Positions 3,532-44,276 of a stretch of DNA of 64,000 nucleotides are shown here, piece by piece. The stretch comes from Halosimplex rubrum (GTDB lineage: Archaea; Halobacteriota; Halobacteria; Halobacteriales; Haloarculaceae), in NCBI RefSeq assembly GCF_013415885.1, contig NZ_CP058910.1, forward strand, positions 310,001 to 374,000, given 5' to 3'. The notes beneath the pieces were generated by a model. It saw only the letters and a list, made by a program, of their open reading frames with translations. It made no database searches and was not told the origin of the DNA. The position numbers were made by a program, and so were the translations under genes. Within the stretch, counting starts at the first letter, position 1; every line of letters begins with the position of its first letter.

Positions 3532-5499
3532 CTACTCCAGCGTGACGTCGTCGAACGCCTGGTTCTCCATCACGCCGTACATCTCCACGTCGACACCGTC
3601 GTGCCAGAAACGCTGGCTATTCGGATGGAGGAACGGGAGCTCCTGGACCGACGCCCAGTTCATCTCCTCGATGGTCTGGAACGCCTCCGCGTGGTCGGCC
3701 TCGGTCGTGCCCTCGGCGGCGTAGTTGTCCTCCCAGGCCTCGATGGCCGTGTCGCGGTACTCGTCGGTGTAGTAGCTGCCCTCGGCGCCCCAGCGGGTGA
3801 ACTGCGTGCTCGGGCTGTCGCCCCAGAGGAACCGCAAGAAGTTCTGCGGGCCGGGGTACTCCATCCCGTCGCCCAGGCCGAACACCTCCATGTCGCCGGA
3901 GATGGCCTGGCTGATGATCGTCCCGAACTCCGCCTCGGTGATCTCCATGTCGATGTACGCCGACTGCAGTTTCGGCTGGAGCCGCGTGAACACCTGCCGG
4001 TAGCCGCTGTCGCCGGAGATAGTCGTCGCCGTCACCTCGAATCGGTTGTCCTCGCCGTAGCCGGCCTCCTCCATGACGGCGCGGGCCTCGTCGAGCAGCG
4101 TCTCGCCGTAGCCGTAGGGGTAGCCGTCGGCCGCGAACTCGGTGTTGGAGGCGGCGCCGCTCTCGGCGTGGGCGTCGTAGGACTCCTCGCCGGACTGGCC
4201 GTCCTCGAAGGTGGGGTAGGGCGCCGGCGGCGTGATGTGGTAGGCCGCCTTGCCGGTGCCCTTGTAGACGCTCTCGGCGATGTCGTGCTGGTTCATCGCG
4301 TAGGCGAACGCCCGACGGACCGGCAGGGGGACCTCCAGCGTGTTGAAGACGATGTATTCGGTGGTCAGCGCCGGGATCTCGCCGTAGTTGACCGTGTCGC
4401 CGTTCTGGAACTGGTAAGTGCCGAGCGAACGGTTGCCCTGGCGCTCCTCGATGGAGACGTTGTCGGGGTTGAACGAGGCGGTCGGCATCCCCTCGTCGAG
4501 GATGTGTGCGTTGCCGTTGCGAAAGCGGCTGAGCCGCGTGTTGCCGTCGCCGACGACCGTGAACGTGATCCCGTCGAGTTCGGGAGCCTCGCCGTAGTAG
4601 TCCTCGAAGGCGGTCAGCTGGATCTGGCTGCCCTTCGTCCAGGAGTCGACCGCGAAGGGGCCGACCCCGGCGAAGGTGGGGCCCTCGCCTTCCGTGCTGA
4701 AGAACTCGTTGTAGCTGTACTCGCCGTCGTACCCCTCGATGTCGCCGACCGACCCCTCCGGGAGGACCGCGAACGTCCCGCCGGCGATCTGGAAGAGCGT
4801 GTACTGGAAGGGGGAGGCCAGCGTCATCTCGAAGGTGTAGTCGTCGACCGCCTCGACGGCCAGCGACTCCGGGACGACGTCGCTGAGCGTCTCCTCGTCC
4901 GTGGGTTCGCTCAGGCTCGCGTCCTTCTCGTGGTCGATCGTCATCGTCTCGCCGATGATGTCGTCCCGGTTGCGGGAGTTCTCGGACTCGGCGAGCCGAC
5001 GGTAGGTATAGACCACGTCGTCGGCGGTGAGCTCCGTCCCGTCGTGGAAGGTCACGCCCTCTCTCAGCGTGAACGTGTAGGTCAGGCCGTCCTCCGAGAC
5101 CTCGTAACCCTCCGCGACGGCCGGCTCGGGCGGGTACTGCCCGTCCGGAAACTCCATCAGCGGCTTGTTGTACTGGTTGTACCCCGCGCCCGACCCCTTC
5201 GCGTTGATCGGGTCCAGCGTCTGGATCGACCCGGTCGCCATCATCTGGAGCGTCCCGCCGCTCGCCGGCGACCCGTCGTCCGCGTCGTCGTCCGAGGAAC
5301 CGTCACCCGACGACCCGTCAGACGACGACCCGTCAGACGACGACCCGTCACCCGAGGAACCGTCACCCGACGACCCGTCGTCGGATGTCCCACCGCCGCC
5401 CGACTCCGACGGGTCGTTGTTGGAACAGCCGGCGAGCAGGGTCGCCGCACCCGCGCCCGCTGCAGTGAGGAACCGACGCCGAGTCTGTTTTTCTGGCAT
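3532..5499 (-). CDS. dppA: Extracellular solute-binding lipoprotein, family 5 (dipeptide/oligopeptide type)
   Basis: This is the substrate-capture protein of the importer, 655 residues. The N-terminus has a twin-arginine motif (TRRRFLTAAG), a hydrophobic segment and a lipobox (LLAGCS), so it is probably exported folded by Tat and lipid-anchored. A low-complexity Gly/Ser/Asp linker of about 50 residues follows. The mature domain has family SBP_bac_5 features such as LREGVTFHDGTELTADDVVYTYRR. I chose the ATG at 5499 over an in-frame ATG eight codons upstream because a TATA box sits about 27 bases before 5499, which suggests a leaderless transcript. The nature of the solute is inferred from family only. 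Confidence 0.93.
   Translation of the reverse strand: MPEKQTRRRFLTAAGAGAATLLAGCSNNDPSESGGGGTSDDGSSGDGSSGDGSSSDGSSSDGSSGDGSSDDDADDGSPASGGTLQMMATGSIQTLDPINAKGSGAGYNQYNKPLMEFPDGQYPPEPAVAEGYEVSEDGLTYTFTLREGVTFHDGTELTADDVVYTYRRLAESENSRNRDDIIGETMTIDHEKDASLSEPTDEETLSDVVPESLAVEAVDDYTFEMTLASPFQYTLFQIAGGTFAVLPEGSVGDIEGYDGEYSYNEFFSTEGEGPTFAGVGPFAVDSWTKGSQIQLTAFEDYYGEAPELDGITFTVVGDGNTRLSRFRNGNAHILDEGMPTASFNPDNVSIEERQGNRSLGTYQFQNGDTVNYGEIPALTTEYIVFNTLEVPLPVRRAFAYAMNQHDIAESVYKGTGKAAYHITPPAPYPTFEDGQSGEESYDAHAESGAASNTEFAADGYPYGYGETLLDEARAVMEEAGYGEDNRFEVTATTISGDSGYRQVFTRLQPKLQSAYIDMEITEAEFGTIISQAISGDMEVFGLGDGMEYPGPQNFLRFLWGDSPSTQFTRWGAEGSYYTDEYRDTAIEAWEDNYAAEGTTEADHAEAFQTIEEMNWASVQELPFLHPNSQRFWHDGVDVEMYGVMENQAFDDVTLE
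5292..5379. repeat. Direct repeats encoding the Ser/Gly/Asp linker of the binding protein
   Basis: A 28-base sequence at 5292-5319 recurs exactly at 5352-5379, 60 bases away. The DNA between is built from related 12- and 15-base units. Together they encode the GSS-D-GSS linker between the lipid anchor and the binding domain. Such repeats can expand or contract in frame, so the linker length is probably variable between strains. Confidence 0.8.
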
Positions 5500-37424: not shown

Positions 37425-38042
37425 ATGGCCGTCCAGGACAAGACGCGCGCCCGGATCTTCTACAAGTACCTCTCGAAGGTGTACGACCAGGTCAACCCGT
37501 TCATCTGGACCGAGGAGATGCGGACGGAGGCGCTGGATCTGTTGGACATCGGCCCCGACGACCGCGTCCTCGACGTGGGCTGTGGCACCGGCTTCGGCAC
37601 CGAAGGCATCCTCGAACACACCGACGACGTCCACGGCCTGGACCAGAGCGTCCACCAGATGGAGAAGGCCTGGGAGAAACTCGGCAAGCGCGACCCCGTC
37701 AGCTTCTACCGCGGCGACGCCGAGCGCCTGCCGTTCAAAGACGACACCTTCGACGTGGTGTGGTCCTCGGGCTCGATCGAGTACTGGCCCGACCCCGTCG
37801 CCGCGCTGGCGGAGTGTCGCCGCATCGCCAAGCCCGGCGGGCAGGTCCTCATCGTCGGCCCGAACTACCCCTCCAACACCGTCTTCCAGAAGCTCGCCGA
37901 CGCCTTCATGCTGTTCTACGGCGAGGACGAAGCCGACCGGATGTTCCGCGAAGCCGGCTACGAGCGGTTCCGCCACGTGACGATGGGCCCCTCCTACAGC
38001 CCCGAGGTCGCGATCACGACCGTCGCCGACGTGCCCGAATAG
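37425..38042 (+). CDS. SAM-dependent methyltransferase, quinone-type
   Basis: This is a class I methyltransferase of 205 residues. Motif I is VLDVGCGTGFGTEGIL, the acidic residue after it is in VHGLDQS, and motif II/post-I regions are FYRGDAERLPFKDDTFDVVWSSGSIEYWPD. The segment YKYLSKVYDQVNPFIWTEEM and the order of motifs resemble 2-methyl-6-phytylbenzoquinone-type enzymes, so a role in respiratory quinone methylation is likely but inferred. I chose the ATG at 37425 by family resemblance; ATG 37398 is also in frame. The last 17 codons and 86 bases of flanking DNA recur downstream around a distinctive element. Confidence 0.88.
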   Translation: MAVQDKTRARIFYKYLSKVYDQVNPFIWTEEMRTEALDLLDIGPDDRVLDVGCGTGFGTEGILEHTDDVHGLDQSVHQMEKAWEKLGKRDPVSFYRGDAERLPFKDDTFDVVWSSGSIEYWPDPVAALAECRRIAKPGGQVLIVGPNYPSNTVFQKLADAFMLFYGEDEADRMFREAGYERFRHVTMGPSYSPEVAITTVADVPE

Positions 38043-38354
38043 TCGCTCGCGAGCGGAGCGTGGTCCGAACGAAGTGAGGACCGCGGCGGCGAACGGCGAG
38101 TGGACCGAGCCGTGAGCGGAGCGAGCGCTTTTCACCCACGTTTTTCGACGAGCGGTACCCGGAGCGAGCGAAGCGATCGAGGATACCCGAGGAGAAAAAG
38201 GTGGATGCAGGTTCCTCCTACAGCCCCGAGGTCGCGATCACGACCGTCGCCGACGTGCCCGAGTAGTCGGCTCGCGGGCGGAGCGCGGTCCGAACGAAGT
38301 GAGGACCGCGGACGGCGAACGGCGAGTGGACCGAGCCGCGAGCGGAGCGAGCGC
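37990..38354 (+). repeat. Gene-end-duplicating element E1 (after the methyltransferase)
   Basis: Copy 1 (37990-38128) covers the last codons, the stop and 86 bases downstream of the methyltransferase. Copy 2 (38214-38354) repeats it with about four substitutions and two single-base insertions. Between them, 38129-38213 is a core with TTTTCACCCACGTTTTTC, then GGTACCCG, then GAGGATACCCGAG, then GAAAAAGGTGG. The core ends are imperfect inverted repeats: CCAC-G-TTTTTC against GAAAAA-G-GTGG. The core is shared with a second element at 42961-43269. This accounts for essentially all of the 320 bases before the next gene. Confidence 0.85.
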
Positions 38355-38362
38355 GGGGTTCG

Positions 38363-39652
38363 TCAGTTGGCGAAGAACCGTTCGCGGACGGTCCGGCCGC
38401 CGGCAGTCGTCACTTCGATGCGGACGGCCTGTTTCGGGGTGAGCGTCCAGAGGCGCCCGTCGTCGCCGGTCGACCCCACGTCGTCGCCGTTGATCGTGAC
38501 GTTCGCGGCGAGGGCGTCGCCGGTCAAGTTGTCCCTGACCACGATCTGCATCGGGCCGGTCGCGTGCGTGCGATTGACGGTCAGTTCGACGCCCTGGCTC
38601 GTGTTGGTCGTGGCGGTCAGGGGCGTGTTTTCGAGGGGCTTGGTCTGTAACTCGCGGAACGGCGACTCCGTGCGTCCGTCGAGGTAGGTGTCGAGCGTGC
38701 CGTGGGAGTGGCGCAGCGACACGTAGTAGATGGAGGTGTTGCCGATGGGCTCGACCGTCGGTCCGGAGCGAGCGTTCAAACTCGCCCAGGGGTAGAGCTG
38801 AGTCATCCGCCCGATGGCGTTTCCGACCCCGTTCGGGTCGGCGTCCGTGACGAACCGGTCCCGGCCGACCTGCTCGCGGTTCTGGCCGAGATAGGCCTCG
38901 CGGTAGTACTGCGACCGCTCGATCGACGAGAGGACGGTCCCCGTCTGGGACGTGACGGTGTAGGCGGGGACGGACGTGCGCTCGCCCGCCATAGCGCTCC
39001 CCAGCTGGGCGCGGACGGGCCCGTGTAGCGAGAGGAGGTCGCCTTCGAGGTTGTTCATCTTCGTGTCCAGGTCCGAGGGCAGTTCGAGCCCCGTCGCGCT
39101 GCGGATCCGGGCGAACTGGTCGCCGGTGGCGCGGGCGGTCGCGTCGAGCGCCGCCAGCTCCCGCAGGAACTCGCGGGTGTCGATCTCGCCGGCGTTGTAG
39201 TCGTCGATGAGCCGGTTCCGACGGAGTTCGAGCCGCTGGACGCGCTCGCCGAGGCGCTCGACCTCCTCGTGGAGGAGCCTCGACCGCGCGCGCTCGCCCG
39301 TCGTGTTCTCGTAGCGCTCTTCGAACGTGAGCGACGCGTACCGACCACGGAGACCGGCCACGTCCCGCTGGAGGGCGCCACCGATGTTCAGCCCCACCCG
39401 CTGGTGGTCGGCGGCCTCGACGGACCCGTCGCTGATCCCGAGATAGTTCGAGGTGTTCTGTTCCGCGGTGTCCGTCGACAGCCCGGCGGCGTCGGCCGAC
39501 GCGCCCAGCGGCGGTCCGGCGCCGGACTCGAGGGCGCGGTCGGGAACGGCCCCAGAGTCGGTTCCGAGCGACCCCGCGGCGACCGCCTGTGTCGCCGGTG
39601 CCGCGACGAGCAGGGCCAGGACCGCGAGGAGGACAGGGCGGTTCGGAGACAT
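38363..39652 (-). CDS. Secreted or membrane-anchored haloarchaeal protein, coiled coil
   Basis: This is a 429-residue protein with an N-terminal hydrophobic segment (RPVLLAVLALLVAAPATQAVA) that reads as a Sec signal peptide. A coiled-coil region follows at about 115-165 (ERARSRLLHEEVERLGERVQ). The C-terminal region is an Ig-like beta domain (LTGDALAANVTINGDDVGST) with many Asn-x-Thr/Ser sites, so it is probably N-glycosylated outside the cell. I do not recognise the family with certainty. It is divergent from a membrane HTH gene, and the pairing may be functional. The start is set by a TATA box 28 bases upstream. Confidence 0.83.
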   Translation of the reverse strand: MSPNRPVLLAVLALLVAAPATQAVAAGSLGTDSGAVPDRALESGAGPPLGASADAAGLSTDTAEQNTSNYLGISDGSVEAADHQRVGLNIGGALQRDVAGLRGRYASLTFEERYENTTGERARSRLLHEEVERLGERVQRLELRRNRLIDDYNAGEIDTREFLRELAALDATARATGDQFARIRSATGLELPSDLDTKMNNLEGDLLSLHGPVRAQLGSAMAGERTSVPAYTVTSQTGTVLSSIERSQYYREAYLGQNREQVGRDRFVTDADPNGVGNAIGRMTQLYPWASLNARSGPTVEPIGNTSIYYVSLRHSHGTLDTYLDGRTESPFRELQTKPLENTPLTATTNTSQGVELTVNRTHATGPMQIVVRDNLTGDALAANVTINGDDVGSTGDDGRLWTLTPKQAVRIEVTTAGGRTVRERFFAN

Positions 39653-39674
39653 CGGATACACTCTTTCGTCGCCG

Positions 39675-39685
39675 GTTACAAAAAC
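39675..39685 (-). promoter_or_regulatory. TATA box of the secreted coiled-coil gene
   Basis: The minus strand reads GTTTTTGTAAC, centred about 28 bases before the ATG at 39652, consistent with a leaderless mRNA and with the choice of that ATG over one 15 codons upstream. Confidence 0.6.
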
Positions 39686-39752
39686 CCATCTACTCACGAT
39701 ACCGCCGCGAGACGTGGAGAGAGCCGCAGACGTTTCAAAAGCAACGGAGACG

Positions 39753-39758
39753 TTTTAA
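39753..39758 (+). promoter_or_regulatory. TATA box of the membrane HTH gene
   Basis: TTTTAA lies about 40 bases before the ATG at 39797, which gives a leader of about a dozen bases. It argues against the in-frame ATG at 39758, which overlaps the box itself. Confidence 0.55.
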
Positions 39759-39796
39759 TGAAAAGCGTTTTCCGCTCCGGCCGAAATGAGTCGAGT

Positions 39797-41176
39797 ATGT
39801 CCCCGCGGTCGTTCGCCGTCGTCGTCACCGTACTCCTCCTCCTCCCGGTCGGGGTCGTCCCAGCCGCGACGCTCGGGGACGAGGTGGGCGCGAGCCCGGC
39901 GGACCACGCCGGAATGGTCGACGGGAACGCCGCCCCGCACAACGGCTCAATCGACCCGGGAGAGTTCGAGATGCGGGTCGAGATGGCCGCCGATGGCGAC
40001 GCGCGGTGGCGCGTGAAGACCGTCGTGTCGGACTCGATCACGACAGGCGACGAGCGGCGGGCGTTCCGCGAGTTCGTCGACGAGTTCAACCGGAGCGAGT
40101 CGCCGCTCACCTTGAACTCGTTCGTGGAGGCCGCGGACAACGCCAGCGGCGTGACCGGTCGGGAGATGACGATCCGGAACGTCGAGCGCCACCACGCGCT
40201 GCACGACGAGACCGGCGCCGTCTGGGTCACGTTCACGTGGACGAACTTCGGGCGGACGAGCGGCGACCTGCTCGCCATCGACGACGCGTTCAACACCTCC
40301 TCGGGCGTGTGGCTCTCGTCGCTGCCGGCGGGCGATACGCTGGTCGTCGTCCCGCCGAGCGGGTACGGTATCAGCAGCGCGCCGACGAGCGGCCCCGCCG
40401 CGGCGTCGAGTCTCGCGGGCGGTGTCGCCAGGTGGGAGGGGCCACAGGACTTCGGCCAGCGCGGGCCGTGGATCGTCTACTCCGGCGACGCGGCGTCCCC
40501 GACACCGACGCCCACGGCCGGACGACCGCCGACGGTGACGCCGACCGGCACCCCCGGCGGCCCCGCGACGGGCACGGGAACGTCACCCGGTGGCCCCGGC
40601 AGTGACGGCGACGGCATCGCGGGCGCGCTGCCGTTCGTGGTCGTCGCCGTCGTCGGCGGGGCGAGCGCCGCCGTGCTCGTCGCGTACATGCGTCGCGAGG
40701 ACGACGGGCTGGGCGGACTCGTCGGCTCCGGCGACGAGCCCGACGCCGGCGCGGCGGCCGCCGACGGCGCCGTGGCGGACGGCGAGACGGCCGATACCGC
40801 CGTCGGCGGCGCATCACCGGCCGACGACGCGGCCACCGCCGGTACCGGCGGTGCCGCGGGGGCCGCCGGGAGTGCCGCGGGCGCCGGCGGGTCGACCGCC
40901 GACGCCGACACCGACGCGGAGAGGGCCGACGAAGCCGACGACGGCATCGACGAGGACCTGCTCAGCGACGAGGAGCGCGTCGAGCGGTTGATCGAGCGCA
41001 ACGGCGGCCGGATGAAGCAGGCGGCCATCGTCCAGGAGACGGGCTGGTCGAACGCGAAGGTCTCGCAGTTGCTCTCGGCGATGGACGACGACGACCGGAT
41101 CGACAAACTCCGTATCGGCCGGGAGAACCTCATCTCGTTCCCCGACGAGGACGTGACCGATCTCGACTCCGAGTAG
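39797..41176 (+). CDS. Membrane-anchored helix-turn-helix regulator
   Basis: This is a 459-residue protein with a signal-like N-terminus, an extracellular beta-rich domain (about 50-215) beginning FEMRVEMAADGDARWRVKTV, a Pro/Thr-rich stalk, and one transmembrane helix (ALPFVVVAVVGGASAAVLVAYM). A long acidic, Ala/Gly-rich cytoplasmic linker leads to a winged HTH (EERVERLIERNGGRMKQAAI, then TGWSNAKVSQLLSAM). The topology puts a sensor outside and a DNA-binding domain inside. It is divergent from the secreted coiled-coil gene at 38363-39652, which may share its signal. The ligand and targets are unknown. Confidence 0.86.
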   Translation: MSPRSFAVVVTVLLLLPVGVVPAATLGDEVGASPADHAGMVDGNAAPHNGSIDPGEFEMRVEMAADGDARWRVKTVVSDSITTGDERRAFREFVDEFNRSESPLTLNSFVEAADNASGVTGREMTIRNVERHHALHDETGAVWVTFTWTNFGRTSGDLLAIDDAFNTSSGVWLSSLPAGDTLVVVPPSGYGISSAPTSGPAAASSLAGGVARWEGPQDFGQRGPWIVYSGDAASPTPTPTAGRPPTVTPTGTPGGPATGTGTSPGGPGSDGDGIAGALPFVVVAVVGGASAAVLVAYMRREDDGLGGLVGSGDEPDAGAAAADGAVADGETADTAVGGASPADDAATAGTGGAAGAAGSAAGAGGSTADADTDAERADEADDGIDEDLLSDEERVERLIERNGGRMKQAAIVQETGWSNAKVSQLLSAMDDDDRIDKLRIGRENLISFPDEDVTDLDSE

Positions 41177-41245
41177 GCCGAGTGTTCTCGCGGTAGCGAC
41201 CCGTTTCGCGGCGAAAACGCCGAACAACGGTCGCCCCCTCGGAAA

Positions 41246-41253
41246 CGTTTAAC
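41246..41253 (+). promoter_or_regulatory. TATA box of etfBA
   Basis: CGTTTAAC is centred about 29 bases before the etfB ATG at 41279, fitting a leaderless transcript. Confidence 0.6.
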
Positions 41254-41278
41254 CGCCGAGCGGGCCAACCCTCGGGGC

Positions 41279-42070
41279 ATGAAGGTCCTCGTCACAGTCA
41301 CGGACGTGGCGGTCGTCGACGACGAGTTCGAGATCGACGGACTCGACGTCGACGAGCGGTATCTCACCTACGAACTCAACGAGTGGGACGACTACGCCGT
41401 CGAGGAGGCCGTCCGGATCGCCGAAGACGGCGAGGACGTGGAGGTCGTCACCGTCACCGTCGGCCCGGAACGCTCCGAGGAGACGATCCGGAAGGCGCTG
41501 GCGAAGGGCGCCGACCGCGCGGTCCGGGTCTGGGACGACGCCATCGCCGGGCGCGAGCTGCTCGACGCCGAGACCAAAGCCGAGCTGCTGGCGGCGGTCG
41601 CCCGCGAGGAGGAGCCCGACCTAGTCCTCTCGGGCGTCCAGAGCGGCGACGACAGCTTCGCCGCGACCGGCGTCACGCTCGCCGAGAAGCTCGGCGAGGA
41701 GTGGGCGGCGGTCGTCAACCAGCTGGACCTCGACGCCGACGCGGGCGTCGCCTCGGTCCACCGCGAGCTGGAGGGCGGCGTCGAGGAGCTGACCGACGTG
41801 GAGCTGCCCGCCGTCCTGACCATCCAGACGGGGATCAACGAGCCGCGCTACGCCAGCCTGCGGGGCATCCGCCAGGCCCAGAACAAGCCCCTCGACGTGC
41901 AGACGCTCGGCGACCTGGGTCTCGACGAGAGCGCGCTGGAGACGCCGCTGCGCTGGACGGCGACCTACGAACCGGAGAGCGAGGGCGAGGCGACCGTCTT
42001 CGAGGGCGGCGCCGACGAGACGGCGGGTGAACTCGCCGCCGTCCTCCGCGAGGAGGGGGTGGGTCAATGA
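41279..42070 (+). CDS. etfB: Electron transfer flavoprotein beta subunit
   Basis: This is one half of the FAD-containing electron carrier that links acyl-CoA and other dehydrogenases to the respiratory chain, 263 residues. Family features are YELNEWDDYAVEEAVRIAED near the start, LSGVQSGDDSFAATGV, and the end segment with ELPAVLTIQTGINEPRYASL. The stop overlaps etfA by four bases. No dehydrogenase gene is adjacent, so its electron donors are elsewhere. Confidence 0.94.
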   Translation: MKVLVTVTDVAVVDDEFEIDGLDVDERYLTYELNEWDDYAVEEAVRIAEDGEDVEVVTVTVGPERSEETIRKALAKGADRAVRVWDDAIAGRELLDAETKAELLAAVAREEEPDLVLSGVQSGDDSFAATGVTLAEKLGEEWAAVVNQLDLDADAGVASVHRELEGGVEELTDVELPAVLTIQTGINEPRYASLRGIRQAQNKPLDVQTLGDLGLDESALETPLRWTATYEPESEGEATVFEGGADETAGELAAVLREEGVGQ

Positions 42071-43020
42071 CGGTCCTGGCCGTCGCCGAACACCGCCGCG
42101 GCGAGTTGCGCGACGTGAGCCACGAACTCGCGGGCGCCGGTCGCGAACTGGCCGACGCCACCGACTCGGAGCTACACCTCGCGGTCGTGAGCGGCGACGT
42201 GGATGCCTTCGGGGAGGCGTTGGTCCGCGAGGGCGTCGATCGGGTCCACACCGTCGACTACGGCGAGGAGTTCAACCACGACGTGTCCGTCCAGGCCGTC
42301 GAGCAGCTTGCGGGCGAACTGGACCCCGACTACCTGCTCGTCCCCCACACCGTCAACGGCCTCGACTACGCGCCCGCCGTGGCCGAGCGGCTGGGCCTGC
42401 CGATCGTGACCGACGCCGTCGATATGGCGGTCGACGGTAACCTCGCCGTCACCCGCGAGATGTACGGATCGAAAGTCGAGACGACCATCGAGGTCGACGC
42501 CGACCGGGCGGTCGTGACGCTCCGACCCGCGGAGTGGCCCCAGGCGCCGACGGGCGGCGACGCGACCGTCGAGCCCTTCGACGTGAGCATCGACGAGTCC
42601 GCGGTGCGCTCGACCGTGACCGGCTTCGAGGAGGTTGCGGGCGGCGACGTGGACATCTCCGAGGCCGACGTGCTCGTCTCGGTCGGCCGGGGCATCGAGG
42701 AGGAGGACAACCTCGACATCATCCGGGACCTGGCCGAGGCGCTGGACGCCACCGTCTCGGCCTCGCGTCCGGTCGTCGACAGCGGCTGGCTCCCGAAGAA
42801 CCGCCAGGTCGGCCAGAGCGGAAAGGTCGTCACGCCCGACGTGTACATCGCCATCGGGATCTCCGGCGCGGTCCAGCACGTGGCGGGGATGAAAGGCGCG
42901 GACACGATAATCGCCATCAACACGGACCCCAACGCGCCCATCTTCGACATCGCCGACTACGGCATCGTCGACGACCTGTTCGAGGTCGTGCCGGCGCTGA
43001 CCGAGCAGTTCGGTGGGTAG
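42067..43020 (+). CDS. etfA: Electron transfer flavoprotein alpha subunit
   Basis: This is the partner of EtfB that binds most of the FAD, 317 residues. The C-terminal FAD domain shows ASRPVVDSGWLPKNRQVGQSGK, TPDVYIAIGISGAVQHVAGM and NTDPNAPIFDIADYGIVDDL, all diagnostic. The final 20 codons, beginning at GIVDDLFEVV, are repeated after the gene around an intergenic element, so the protein end exists twice in the DNA. Confidence 0.95.
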   Translation: MTVLAVAEHRRGELRDVSHELAGAGRELADATDSELHLAVVSGDVDAFGEALVREGVDRVHTVDYGEEFNHDVSVQAVEQLAGELDPDYLLVPHTVNGLDYAPAVAERLGLPIVTDAVDMAVDGNLAVTREMYGSKVETTIEVDADRAVVTLRPAEWPQAPTGGDATVEPFDVSIDESAVRSTVTGFEEVAGGDVDISEADVLVSVGRGIEEEDNLDIIRDLAEALDATVSASRPVVDSGWLPKNRQVGQSGKVVTPDVYIAIGISGAVQHVAGMKGADTIIAINTDPNAPIFDIADYGIVDDLFEVVPALTEQFGG

Positions 43021-43269
43021 GGGCCGTCGCCGCTGGCGCCGAAAGGCGCGACGCGCCGTTCGAGCCCACGCTCGCAGGCTCGCGACGCCGGTTCACCGCG
43101 CCGAACCGTGTGAGGCGCGGTCTTTTTCGCCCACGTTTTTGCCGCGAGTGGTACCCGCAGGGCCGACGGCCCGAGGATACCCGAGCGGGAAAAAGGTGGT
43201 ACTGGCATCGTCGACGACCTGTTCGAGGTCGTGCCGGCGCTGACCGAGCAGTTCGGCGGGTAGGGCCGG
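42961..43269 (+). repeat. Gene-end-duplicating element E2 (after etfA)
   Basis: Copy 1 (42961-43026) is the last 20 codons of etfA, including the stop, plus six bases. Copy 2 (43204-43269) is identical except for one substitution. Between them lies a 95-base stretch with small hairpins (43027-43121), then the core at about 43122-43200. The core holds CCCACGTTTTT, GGTACCCG, a GGGCC-GAC-GGCCC hairpin, GAGGATACCCGAG and GAAAAAGGTGG. The core matches E1 block by block although the surrounding genes are unrelated. The rest of the gap to 43433 shows no gene. Confidence 0.87.
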
Positions 43270-43433
43270 TGTCTGCGGCGTCGTGCGCGACTCTGTTCTC
43301 GCAGAAGACATTTACCGGCGATGGGCCACCGGGCCGCCAACGGACTCCGTCCCCTGGTGTTCGGCGCCGCCGTGGCACTGACCGGGTGGCGGTTTCGTCA
43401 GCTACTTGCGGGGCTGTTCCTAAGCGTGGGGCG

Positions 43434-44276
43434 ATGGAGTACCTGGAGAGTCGTCGGGGACGCGTCGAGGAACGGCTGGAGGCGACCCTCGACGCCGTCG
43501 AACCCGACGAACTCGGCGACGAGGTCCGCCACGTCGTCCTCTCGGGAGGCAAACGGGTGCGGCCGACGGTGACGGTGCTGGTCTGCGAGGCGCTGGGCGG
43601 CGACGTCGATACCGCCGTGGAGTTCGCGGTCGGCATCGAACTCGTCCACAGCGCGTCGCTGGTCGTCGACGACATCATCGACCGCTCCGAGCTGCGCCGC
43701 GGGACGCCCTCGGCGTGGGCGGAGTTCGGCCACGGCCCCGCGATCATCGCCAGCGACGGCCTGCTCGGCGAGGCGTTCGCCCTCTTCTCTTCGAACGAGC
43801 GGGCGATGCAGGCCGTCTCCGAGTCGATGGTCGAACTCGGCGAGGGCGAGGCGACCGAACTCGTCGCCCAGCCGGCCAGCGAAGCGGAGTACATGGAGCT
43901 CGCCCGCCGGAAGACCGGCGCGCTGTTCCGCGCCGCGGCGGAACTCGGGGCGATCGCCGCTGAGGCCGACGCCTACACCGTCGAGAACTTCGGGAAGTAC
44001 GCCGAGCGCGTCGGCGTCGCCTTCCAGATGCGCGACGACGTGCTCGACGCCACCGCCGACTCGGAAGAGTTGGGCAAGCCCACCGGCCACGACGCCGCCA
44101 TGGAGCGCCCGTCGCTCGTGCAAGTCGCGGATCTCTCCCCCGAGGAGGCCAACGACCGCGCCCACGAGCAATCGCAAGTGGCGCTCGACGCGCTCGGGTC
44201 GGTCGACGCCGAGGACTCGAAAGCGATGGACTACCTGCGCGACCTGGCGGAGTTCGTCGTTGTTCGGGAGCGGTAG
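43434..44276 (+). CDS. idsA: Polyprenyl (geranylgeranyl-type) diphosphate synthase
   Basis: This builds C15-C25 isoprenyl diphosphates for archaeal lipids and carotenoids, 280 residues, somewhat shorter than usual (about 330-350). It has the first Asp-rich motif DDIID with SLVVDDIIDRSELRRGTPS and the second MRDDVLDAT. The substrate-binding GGKRVRPTVTVL is near the N-terminus. The start is taken at ATG 43434; no in-frame upstream sequence resembles the family. The chain length cannot be decided from the sequence alone. Confidence 0.9.
   Translation: MEYLESRRGRVEERLEATLDAVEPDELGDEVRHVVLSGGKRVRPTVTVLVCEALGGDVDTAVEFAVGIELVHSASLVVDDIIDRSELRRGTPSAWAEFGHGPAIIASDGLLGEAFALFSSNERAMQAVSESMVELGEGEATELVAQPASEAEYMELARRKTGALFRAAAELGAIAAEADAYTVENFGKYAERVGVAFQMRDDVLDATADSEELGKPTGHDAAMERPSLVQVADLSPEEANDRAHEQSQVALDALGSVDAEDSKAMDYLRDLAEFVVVRER

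Follow-up and report, generated by a model that had tools for sequence, protein, structure and literature searches.

The 3' end of a class I SAM methyltransferase (MTase) gene of Halosimplex rubrum is present twice, and this repeat is real and not isolated, being one of dozens of haloarchaeal cases found around a small non-coding hairpin element. There is a fair likelihood that the arrangement arose when a short non-coding element became lodged in the 3' end of the gene, with the gene end copied, the original end displaced, and the two copies homogenised afterwards. The locus lies in the window analysed here, a stretch of 64,000 nucleotides (positions 310,001 to 374,000 of contig NZ_CP058910.1), in which the etfA gene carries a second example (Table 1). 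Genomes and loci are designated by G and L numbers, with G000 being the genome that contains the window.

Table 1. Features of the MTase and etfA gene-end repeats in the window (positions are those of the window) and representative junctions, with the bases added in copy 2 given in brackets.
Feature	Positions	Strand	Basis	Junction
Class I SAM methyltransferase gene (Methyltransf_11), 3' end duplicated; stop TAG 38040-38042	37428..38042	+	ORF; Pfam PF08241 E=2.9e-26	
MTase copy 1 (A), ATG junction trinucleotide to stop TAG; working end of the gene	37983..38042	+	Sequence, alignment, junction table	
z: 3' hairpin region and T-run (TTTTCA), from stop codon to E core	38043..38134	+	Sequence; z compared across loci	
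E core, 70-nt imperfect palindrome CCCACGTTTTT...GAGCGGTACC...ACCCGA...AAAAAGGTGG	38135..38204	+	Pattern family, fold, stems across loci	
MTase copy 2 (A'): ATG, extra CA, gene end up to TAG	38205..38266	+	Alignment, relatives, junction table	
z copy 3' of copy 2 (the 86-base extension)	38267..38354	+	Alignment; relatives	
Convergent neighbour gene (DUF7096/DUF7094/Fn3_arc)	38363..39697	-	Pfam	
etfA gene	42067..43020	+	Pfam PF00766, PF01012	
etfA copy 1 (A), junction trinucleotide TAC to stop	42958..43020	+	Alignment, junction table	
E core at etfA	43130..43199	+	Pattern search	
etfA copy 2 (A'): TAC with a T added, then the gene end up to its stop	43200..43263	+	Alignment, junction table	
Junction, MTase (G004)				ATG[CA]GGGCCC
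Junction, etfA				TAC[T]GGCATC
Junction, argF				CTG[CC]GGACC
Junction, thiolase				CAG[C]GGCGCG
Junction, DHH-type gene				ACT[C]GGACG

A preliminary description of this DNA had counted about four substitutions and two one-base insertions between the MTase copies over about 140 bases from 37990, with one of the substitutions being GAA/GAG in the last Glu codon. These differences are reproduced when 37980-38213 is aligned with 38204-38420, and both insertions fall in copy 2. The repeat begins earlier than 37990, with the ATG trinucleotides lying at 37983 (copy 1) and 38205 (copy 2); copy 2 starts directly after the E core (hereafter E), with CA added after the ATG and another one or two differences upstream of 38214. 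The spacer between the copies as originally delimited (38129-38213) is not unique filler, since 38135-38204 is a member of a genome-wide repeat family, and the earlier interpretation left out this hairpin element that bounds the copies. Misassembly is a general risk with direct repeats, but the probability of an assembly artefact is close to nil given that the repeats occupy orthologous places, that the copies have diverged, and that they recur in the assemblies of several genera, including single-contig ones.

A similarity search of the H. rubrum genome with the MTase-repeat stretch returned 32 matches, many of them stopping at the right end of the palindrome, and a strict palindrome pattern was found at no fewer than 17 places (reversed control, 0); the pattern is present in at least 59 of the 96 genomes of the family with zero control matches, all counts of E made by pattern being lower bounds. 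Across the order, the strict GGTGG form is concentrated in the family to which the window belongs, with scattered copies elsewhere, and the E family is centred on this one haloarchaeal family (Halosimplex, Halomicrobium, and Haloarcula-type genera). E cores vary between loci; the outer stem CCAC/GTGG with its T-run/A-run is kept, and the inner motif GAGYGG...ACCCGA occurs in 55 of the 96 distinct cores. The sides of the middle stem covary, with the first pair being paired in 42 of 55 cores versus 24 in shuffles and the second in 28 versus 16, and pairing at the fourth position of this stem was not above shuffles. RNAalifold, applied to the cores apart from L241, retained the outer and inner stems, with two inner pairs varying on both sides and the outer stem hardly varying at all. 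The fold of the MTase E core itself is modest (z-score -1.77), and a search of 37900-43500 with the Rfam covariance models gave no relevant match. Subterminal palindromes are present (the z hairpin and the E core palindrome), and the hairpins and T-runs of z and E suggest a putative transcription terminator.

Several variants of the family were also observed. Three identical GATGG-type E cores in the H. rubrum genome (G000:C1:2284156, 3479642, and 3714189; L036, L039, and L041) share the left hairpin region and a CTGYACT right flank, which together suggests recent spread. At the argF locus of the same genome (L009, 1225-1293), the E core lies in the opposite orientation to its flanks, which looks like a flip of the hairpin in situ, and at the Spt5-like gene (L019, 428-601), two identical gene ends (47 of 47 bases) enclose a hairpin-rich spacer that has no recognisable E core. 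A variant of the E family in genome G066 (L148-L157) has T6/A6 runs, and CGGACCAAAAAGGTGG comes after some of its copies. A viral origin of E was considered and rejected, as the five pattern matches in IMG/VR look like chance, without the inner motif or a repeat; a search of plasmids for E yielded two weak partial matches only. Elsewhere in the window (5271-5390), a 15-base tandem repeat (family D11) apparently encodes an Asp/Pro/Ser-rich stretch.

The association of E with repeated gene ends was measured by comparing the 60 bases after each E with the 350 bases before it, using mismatched loci as the null and a 1% threshold. A repeat was detected at 63 of the 112 unique E sites, which were fetched by pattern or similarity with orthologues included and are thus neither all independent nor a random sample, and it always started 0-11 bases after E. 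Together with the orthologous MTase loci in five Halosimplex species, this result excludes chance as the origin of the MTase repeat. The frequency differs between forms of the element: among sampled GGTGG-type sites, 58 of 82 carry a repeat (Halosimplex 27/34, Halomicrobium-type 21/30, Haloarcula-type and others 10/18), compared with 1 of 18 GATGG-type sites and none of the seven sites of the G066 variant. What is repeated is usually the terminal 27-80 bases of the gene upstream, stop codon included, in the orientation of E. At many loci the repeat ends within five bases of the stop, and at others, the MTase gene included, it extends further. The unit between the two gene-end copies measures a few hundred nucleotides at most, and at most loci no second E follows copy 2.

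The junctions between E and copy 2 follow a common form. Among the 63 aligned, copy 2 mostly consists of three gene bases at the end of E, one or two added bases, and then the rest of the gene end (Table 1); the fourth junction base is C in 39 of the 63, and a minority of junctions show a substitution or no change. Apart from the junction change, the amidase copies of G044 match throughout a stretch of about 50 bases, and the change therefore probably arose in the event itself rather than by later drift. To our knowledge, no standard transposition mechanism explains an insertion of one or two bases after exactly three, which counts against an insertion.

The direction of change can be read from loci that are empty in some genomes and occupied in others. 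In the Haloarcula-type genomes G045, G057, and G269, the MTase locus is empty, with the gene and its TAA followed by native DNA (CAGCGA... in G045 and G269, TCGCGA... in G057). The occupied alleles of G068, G250, G093, G279, and G087 contain the gene end, TAA, a hairpin, the T-run, E, a second gene end, its stop, and then ACAGCGA.... As the native downstream DNA adjoins copy 2, and as copy 1 ends at the stop where the element begins, copy 2 in these Haloarcula-type genomes is the original gene end, and copy 1 together with the two-hairpin element is the addition. The same direction was found for the DHH-type gene (occupied versus seven empty genomes), a comparison in which G057 was noted for a copy 1 tail (GTDTEQ) that differs from the native tail (GVDTDR) kept by copy 2. 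The amidase locus is likewise empty in G056 and G031 and occupied in G044. The empty and occupied alleles compared belong to different species, several percent apart, which counts against an insertion. The order of events at the window's own MTase repeat can only be inferred, since no Halosimplex relative has an alignable empty site at this locus, a further point against an insertion; from the Haloarcula-type empty sites, its copy 2 is interpreted as the displaced original gene end.

The MTase and etfA repeats share one architecture and belong to a single type of structure. The preliminary description had concluded from the pair that the duplicated length is not fixed; lengths do vary, but the two are not unrelated duplications, both being repeats of the ancestral type near the stop with or without later overruns. 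Longer arrays of the form A-E-A-E-A occur at the thiolase gene of H. rubrum (two E, three gene ends) and at argF in G001, and the Spt5-like gene of G044 contains three 182-bp units over a 19-base remnant common to G031 and G056. These arrays suggest, as far as their sequences indicate, that the repeats recombine, and an allele with a single copy may have lost the element or may never have been occupied. In the terminal gene-end copy of argF in G001 and G002 (L178 and L176), GAC TGA stands in place of the GAA TAG or GAG TAA of the first copies, a changed in-frame stop common to the two species.

Plain tandem duplication followed by deletion would also explain some of the tandem arrays and single-copy E sites. 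In this reading, E is an ordinary intergenic terminator hairpin at which replication stalls, the nascent strand returns by slippage to the gene end and recopies it, and the second E decays. Such an origin would account for the complete A-E-A-E arrays (argF in G000 and G003, thiolase in G000), for the terminal copies with truncated E at thiolase in G004 and G006, and for a clear recent expansion in G044. It would also suit argF in G005, which is arranged as A-z-E-Y with copy 2 absent and which, taken alone, would fit an order in which E came first and the repeat later, against an insertion. Tandem duplication is nonetheless considered unlikely, because the second E is missing after copy 2 at most loci, because at empty sites the gene end that matches copy 2 is followed directly by native DNA with no E, and because at argF in G003 the z regions are the same (z = z') but E1 differs from E2, so that E1 is not a fresh copy of E2.

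The MTase repeat was found in five Halosimplex genomes with an identical ATG-CA junction and is absent in three. The event is therefore old, and the shared junction bases lend no support to the recent simple duplication that the preliminary description had entertained. In Halorussus amylolyticus (L077) and the Haloarcula-type genomes, this gene also carries a repeat, at a slightly different position, and given this difference in position the events there may be independent. When the locus was aligned across relatives and the sharing of substitutions between copies within a species was examined, as had been proposed earlier, the two copies were found to be alike within species and to differ between species. 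Within-species identity of A and A' at the MTase gene averages 0.969 in six genomes, versus a permutation mean of 0.842, and is the best of 720 permutations; the observed value was reached by 6 of 720 permutations at the thiolase gene, 3 of 720 at VOC, and 2 of 120 at argF, and by none of 20,000 for the five loci together. Gene conversion between the copies, one of the two possibilities raised at the outset, is thus strongly supported by the permutation test (0/20,000). More exactly, the concerted evolution of A and A' in these sequences speaks for either conversion or re-duplication that recurred with the same junction. Two reports describe efficient gene conversion between chromosome copies in Haloferax volcanii (PMC8223754, PMC11276520). 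Going by those accounts, the process homogenising A and A' is likely the same, but its partners here would be direct repeats of a single locus, separated by about 150-300 bp.

Comparison among species also bears on the 86 bases downstream of the stop. In the MTase genes of G003, G004, G006, and G007, copy 2 departs from copy 1 at the stop or within about 30 bases of it. In G288, the copied hairpin and T-run extend to a shared CGCCC, at which native DNA resumes, and in the gene at L236, copy 2 of G056 has been re-homogenised beyond the stop and the copy of G044 has diverged. For these reasons, the 86-base extension is most plausibly a later conversion tract that overran the stop. The ancestral repeat ends at or near the stop codon, and the variable length is explained by later overruns.

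Similarity between A and A' could alternatively be maintained by selection, if E and A' formed a functional arrangement such as a regulatory 3' UTR or a scaffold-plus-guide RNA. The E core is structured, some genes (MTase, argF, and Spt5-like) carry the arrangement in several genera, and the terminal A' of argF in G001 and G002 retains a stop (GAC TGA) despite its changed codons, all of which would be expected of a functional unit. The arrangement is absent, however, in many species at any given gene, A' may hold an indel (MTase in G003) or be reduced to some 19 nt (the Spt5-like genes of G031 and G056), and gene conversion alone accounts for the similarity of the copies; a functional arrangement is accordingly rated as improbable. 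The guide-RNA version, with E as the scaffold, is given only minor weight because A' can be so short or can carry an indel.

The history favored here, an element lodged in the gene 3' end followed by homogenisation, would proceed as follows. The element, about 85-170 nt long, consists of two hairpins joined by a T-run (z and the E core) and would have become lodged in the MTase gene at its 3' end. As observed, the gene runs into copy 1 of its last codons and stops there, the element comes next, and copy 2 starts directly at the right end of the element. The element would spread as DNA, by insertion or by replication template switching near gene ends and terminators, a mode that is favored but held loosely. 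The process would copy the gene end through the stop, leaving three gene bases and one or two extra bases, and selection would keep only those events that rebuild the gene. Homologous recombination between the direct repeats would then homogenise A and A', and would sometimes overrun the stop (the 86 bases), expand the array (A-E-A-E-A), or delete the element. Within a genome, many genes show this architecture, and some of these genes show it in several genera. No enzyme for the insertion of E was identified, and this counts against an insertion.

The candidate enzymatic systems fared poorly. Retro-insertion, in which reverse transcription of an E RNA into the gene end leaves long, variable target-site duplications as with SINEs, would match the variable repeat lengths, the fixed right end, and the extra junction bases; it is very improbable, as among the 96 family genomes the RVT_1 domain was found in only one (G077), which has no exact-pattern E, and in none of the E-rich genomes nor that of H. 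rubrum. A diversity-generating retroelement was rejected because the copies show few differences and no adenine pattern and because the H. rubrum genome is without RVT_1. An IS200/IS605 TnpA was likewise rejected, since Y1_Tnp does not track E: no match was obtained in the E-rich genomes G001, G031, G045, G052, and G057, and the domain is present in the E-free G035. A mini-element mobilised by an integrase was discarded because the junctions are not conservative, most having one or two extra bases after the first three.

E resembles several known elements in part. The PATEs and SMRs of Haloquadratum walsbyi are transposase-free and reported without target duplications, and the mobilisation of SMRs has been termed enigmatic (PMC3119063). 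Like E, these are short, palindromic haloarchaeal repeats in which another repeat may nest within the palindrome; unlike them, most GGTGG-type E are flanked by copies of roughly 20-180 bp of a gene 3' end, and the insertion points are not one fixed tetranucleotide. E shares the palindrome of IS605-derived PATEs and MITEs, but not their association with Y1_Tnp in the genome nor their lack of target duplications, direct repeats being present at the 63 sites described above and the empty sites being single-copy. A second hairpin repeat was observed nested inside E between CGCCACC and GGACCACG, with ACC on both sides, at L049 (MTase in G002), L263 (G044), and L179 (argF in G004), and similar remains were found at L180 (argF in G006) and L171 (nuoI in G006). 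This nested repeat resembles SMR elements, which target palindromes.

Integrase-borne elements (tRNA-gene islands and similar) integrate at the 3' ends of genes, which they restore. The E loci are alike in that the upstream copy rebuilds the gene and, at the Haloarcula-type loci, the original end is displaced downstream; they differ in that E contains no integrase, is very short, occupies a different gene each time, and carries one or two extra bases at most junctions in place of a conservative crossover. REP/REPIN sequences are intergenic imperfect palindromes in many copies associated with RAYT transposases (PMC3116915, PMC2817692). E is similar in being an imperfect palindrome located between genes in many copies, and dissimilar in that the presence of Y1_Tnp does not track it. 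As far as is known to us, gene-end duplication does not form part of descriptions of REP/REPIN. An earlier description of the arrangement of a gene-end repeat with E was not found among open-licence papers.

Taken as a family, E may tentatively be proposed, at somewhat less than even confidence, to be a protein-free archaeal element that inserts into the 3' ends of protein-coding genes, rebuilds the gene from a copy of its last codons, and displaces the original end, hitting different genes and recognisable by its junction signature and concerted copies. If this is correct, a number of haloarchaeal housekeeping genes (the MTase gene, argF, etfA, nuoI, the thiolase and Spt5-like genes, and others) would end in a copy of their last codons that replaces the displaced original. 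The loci would then offer a tractable natural system for studying how a tiny non-coding repeat invades gene ends without breaking genes, with a junction signature available for study, as well as a system for studying how gene conversion acts on short direct repeats in polyploid archaea. The gene tails and spacers of such genomes would be mosaic, which would affect annotation, terminator mapping, and phylogenies that include gene ends.
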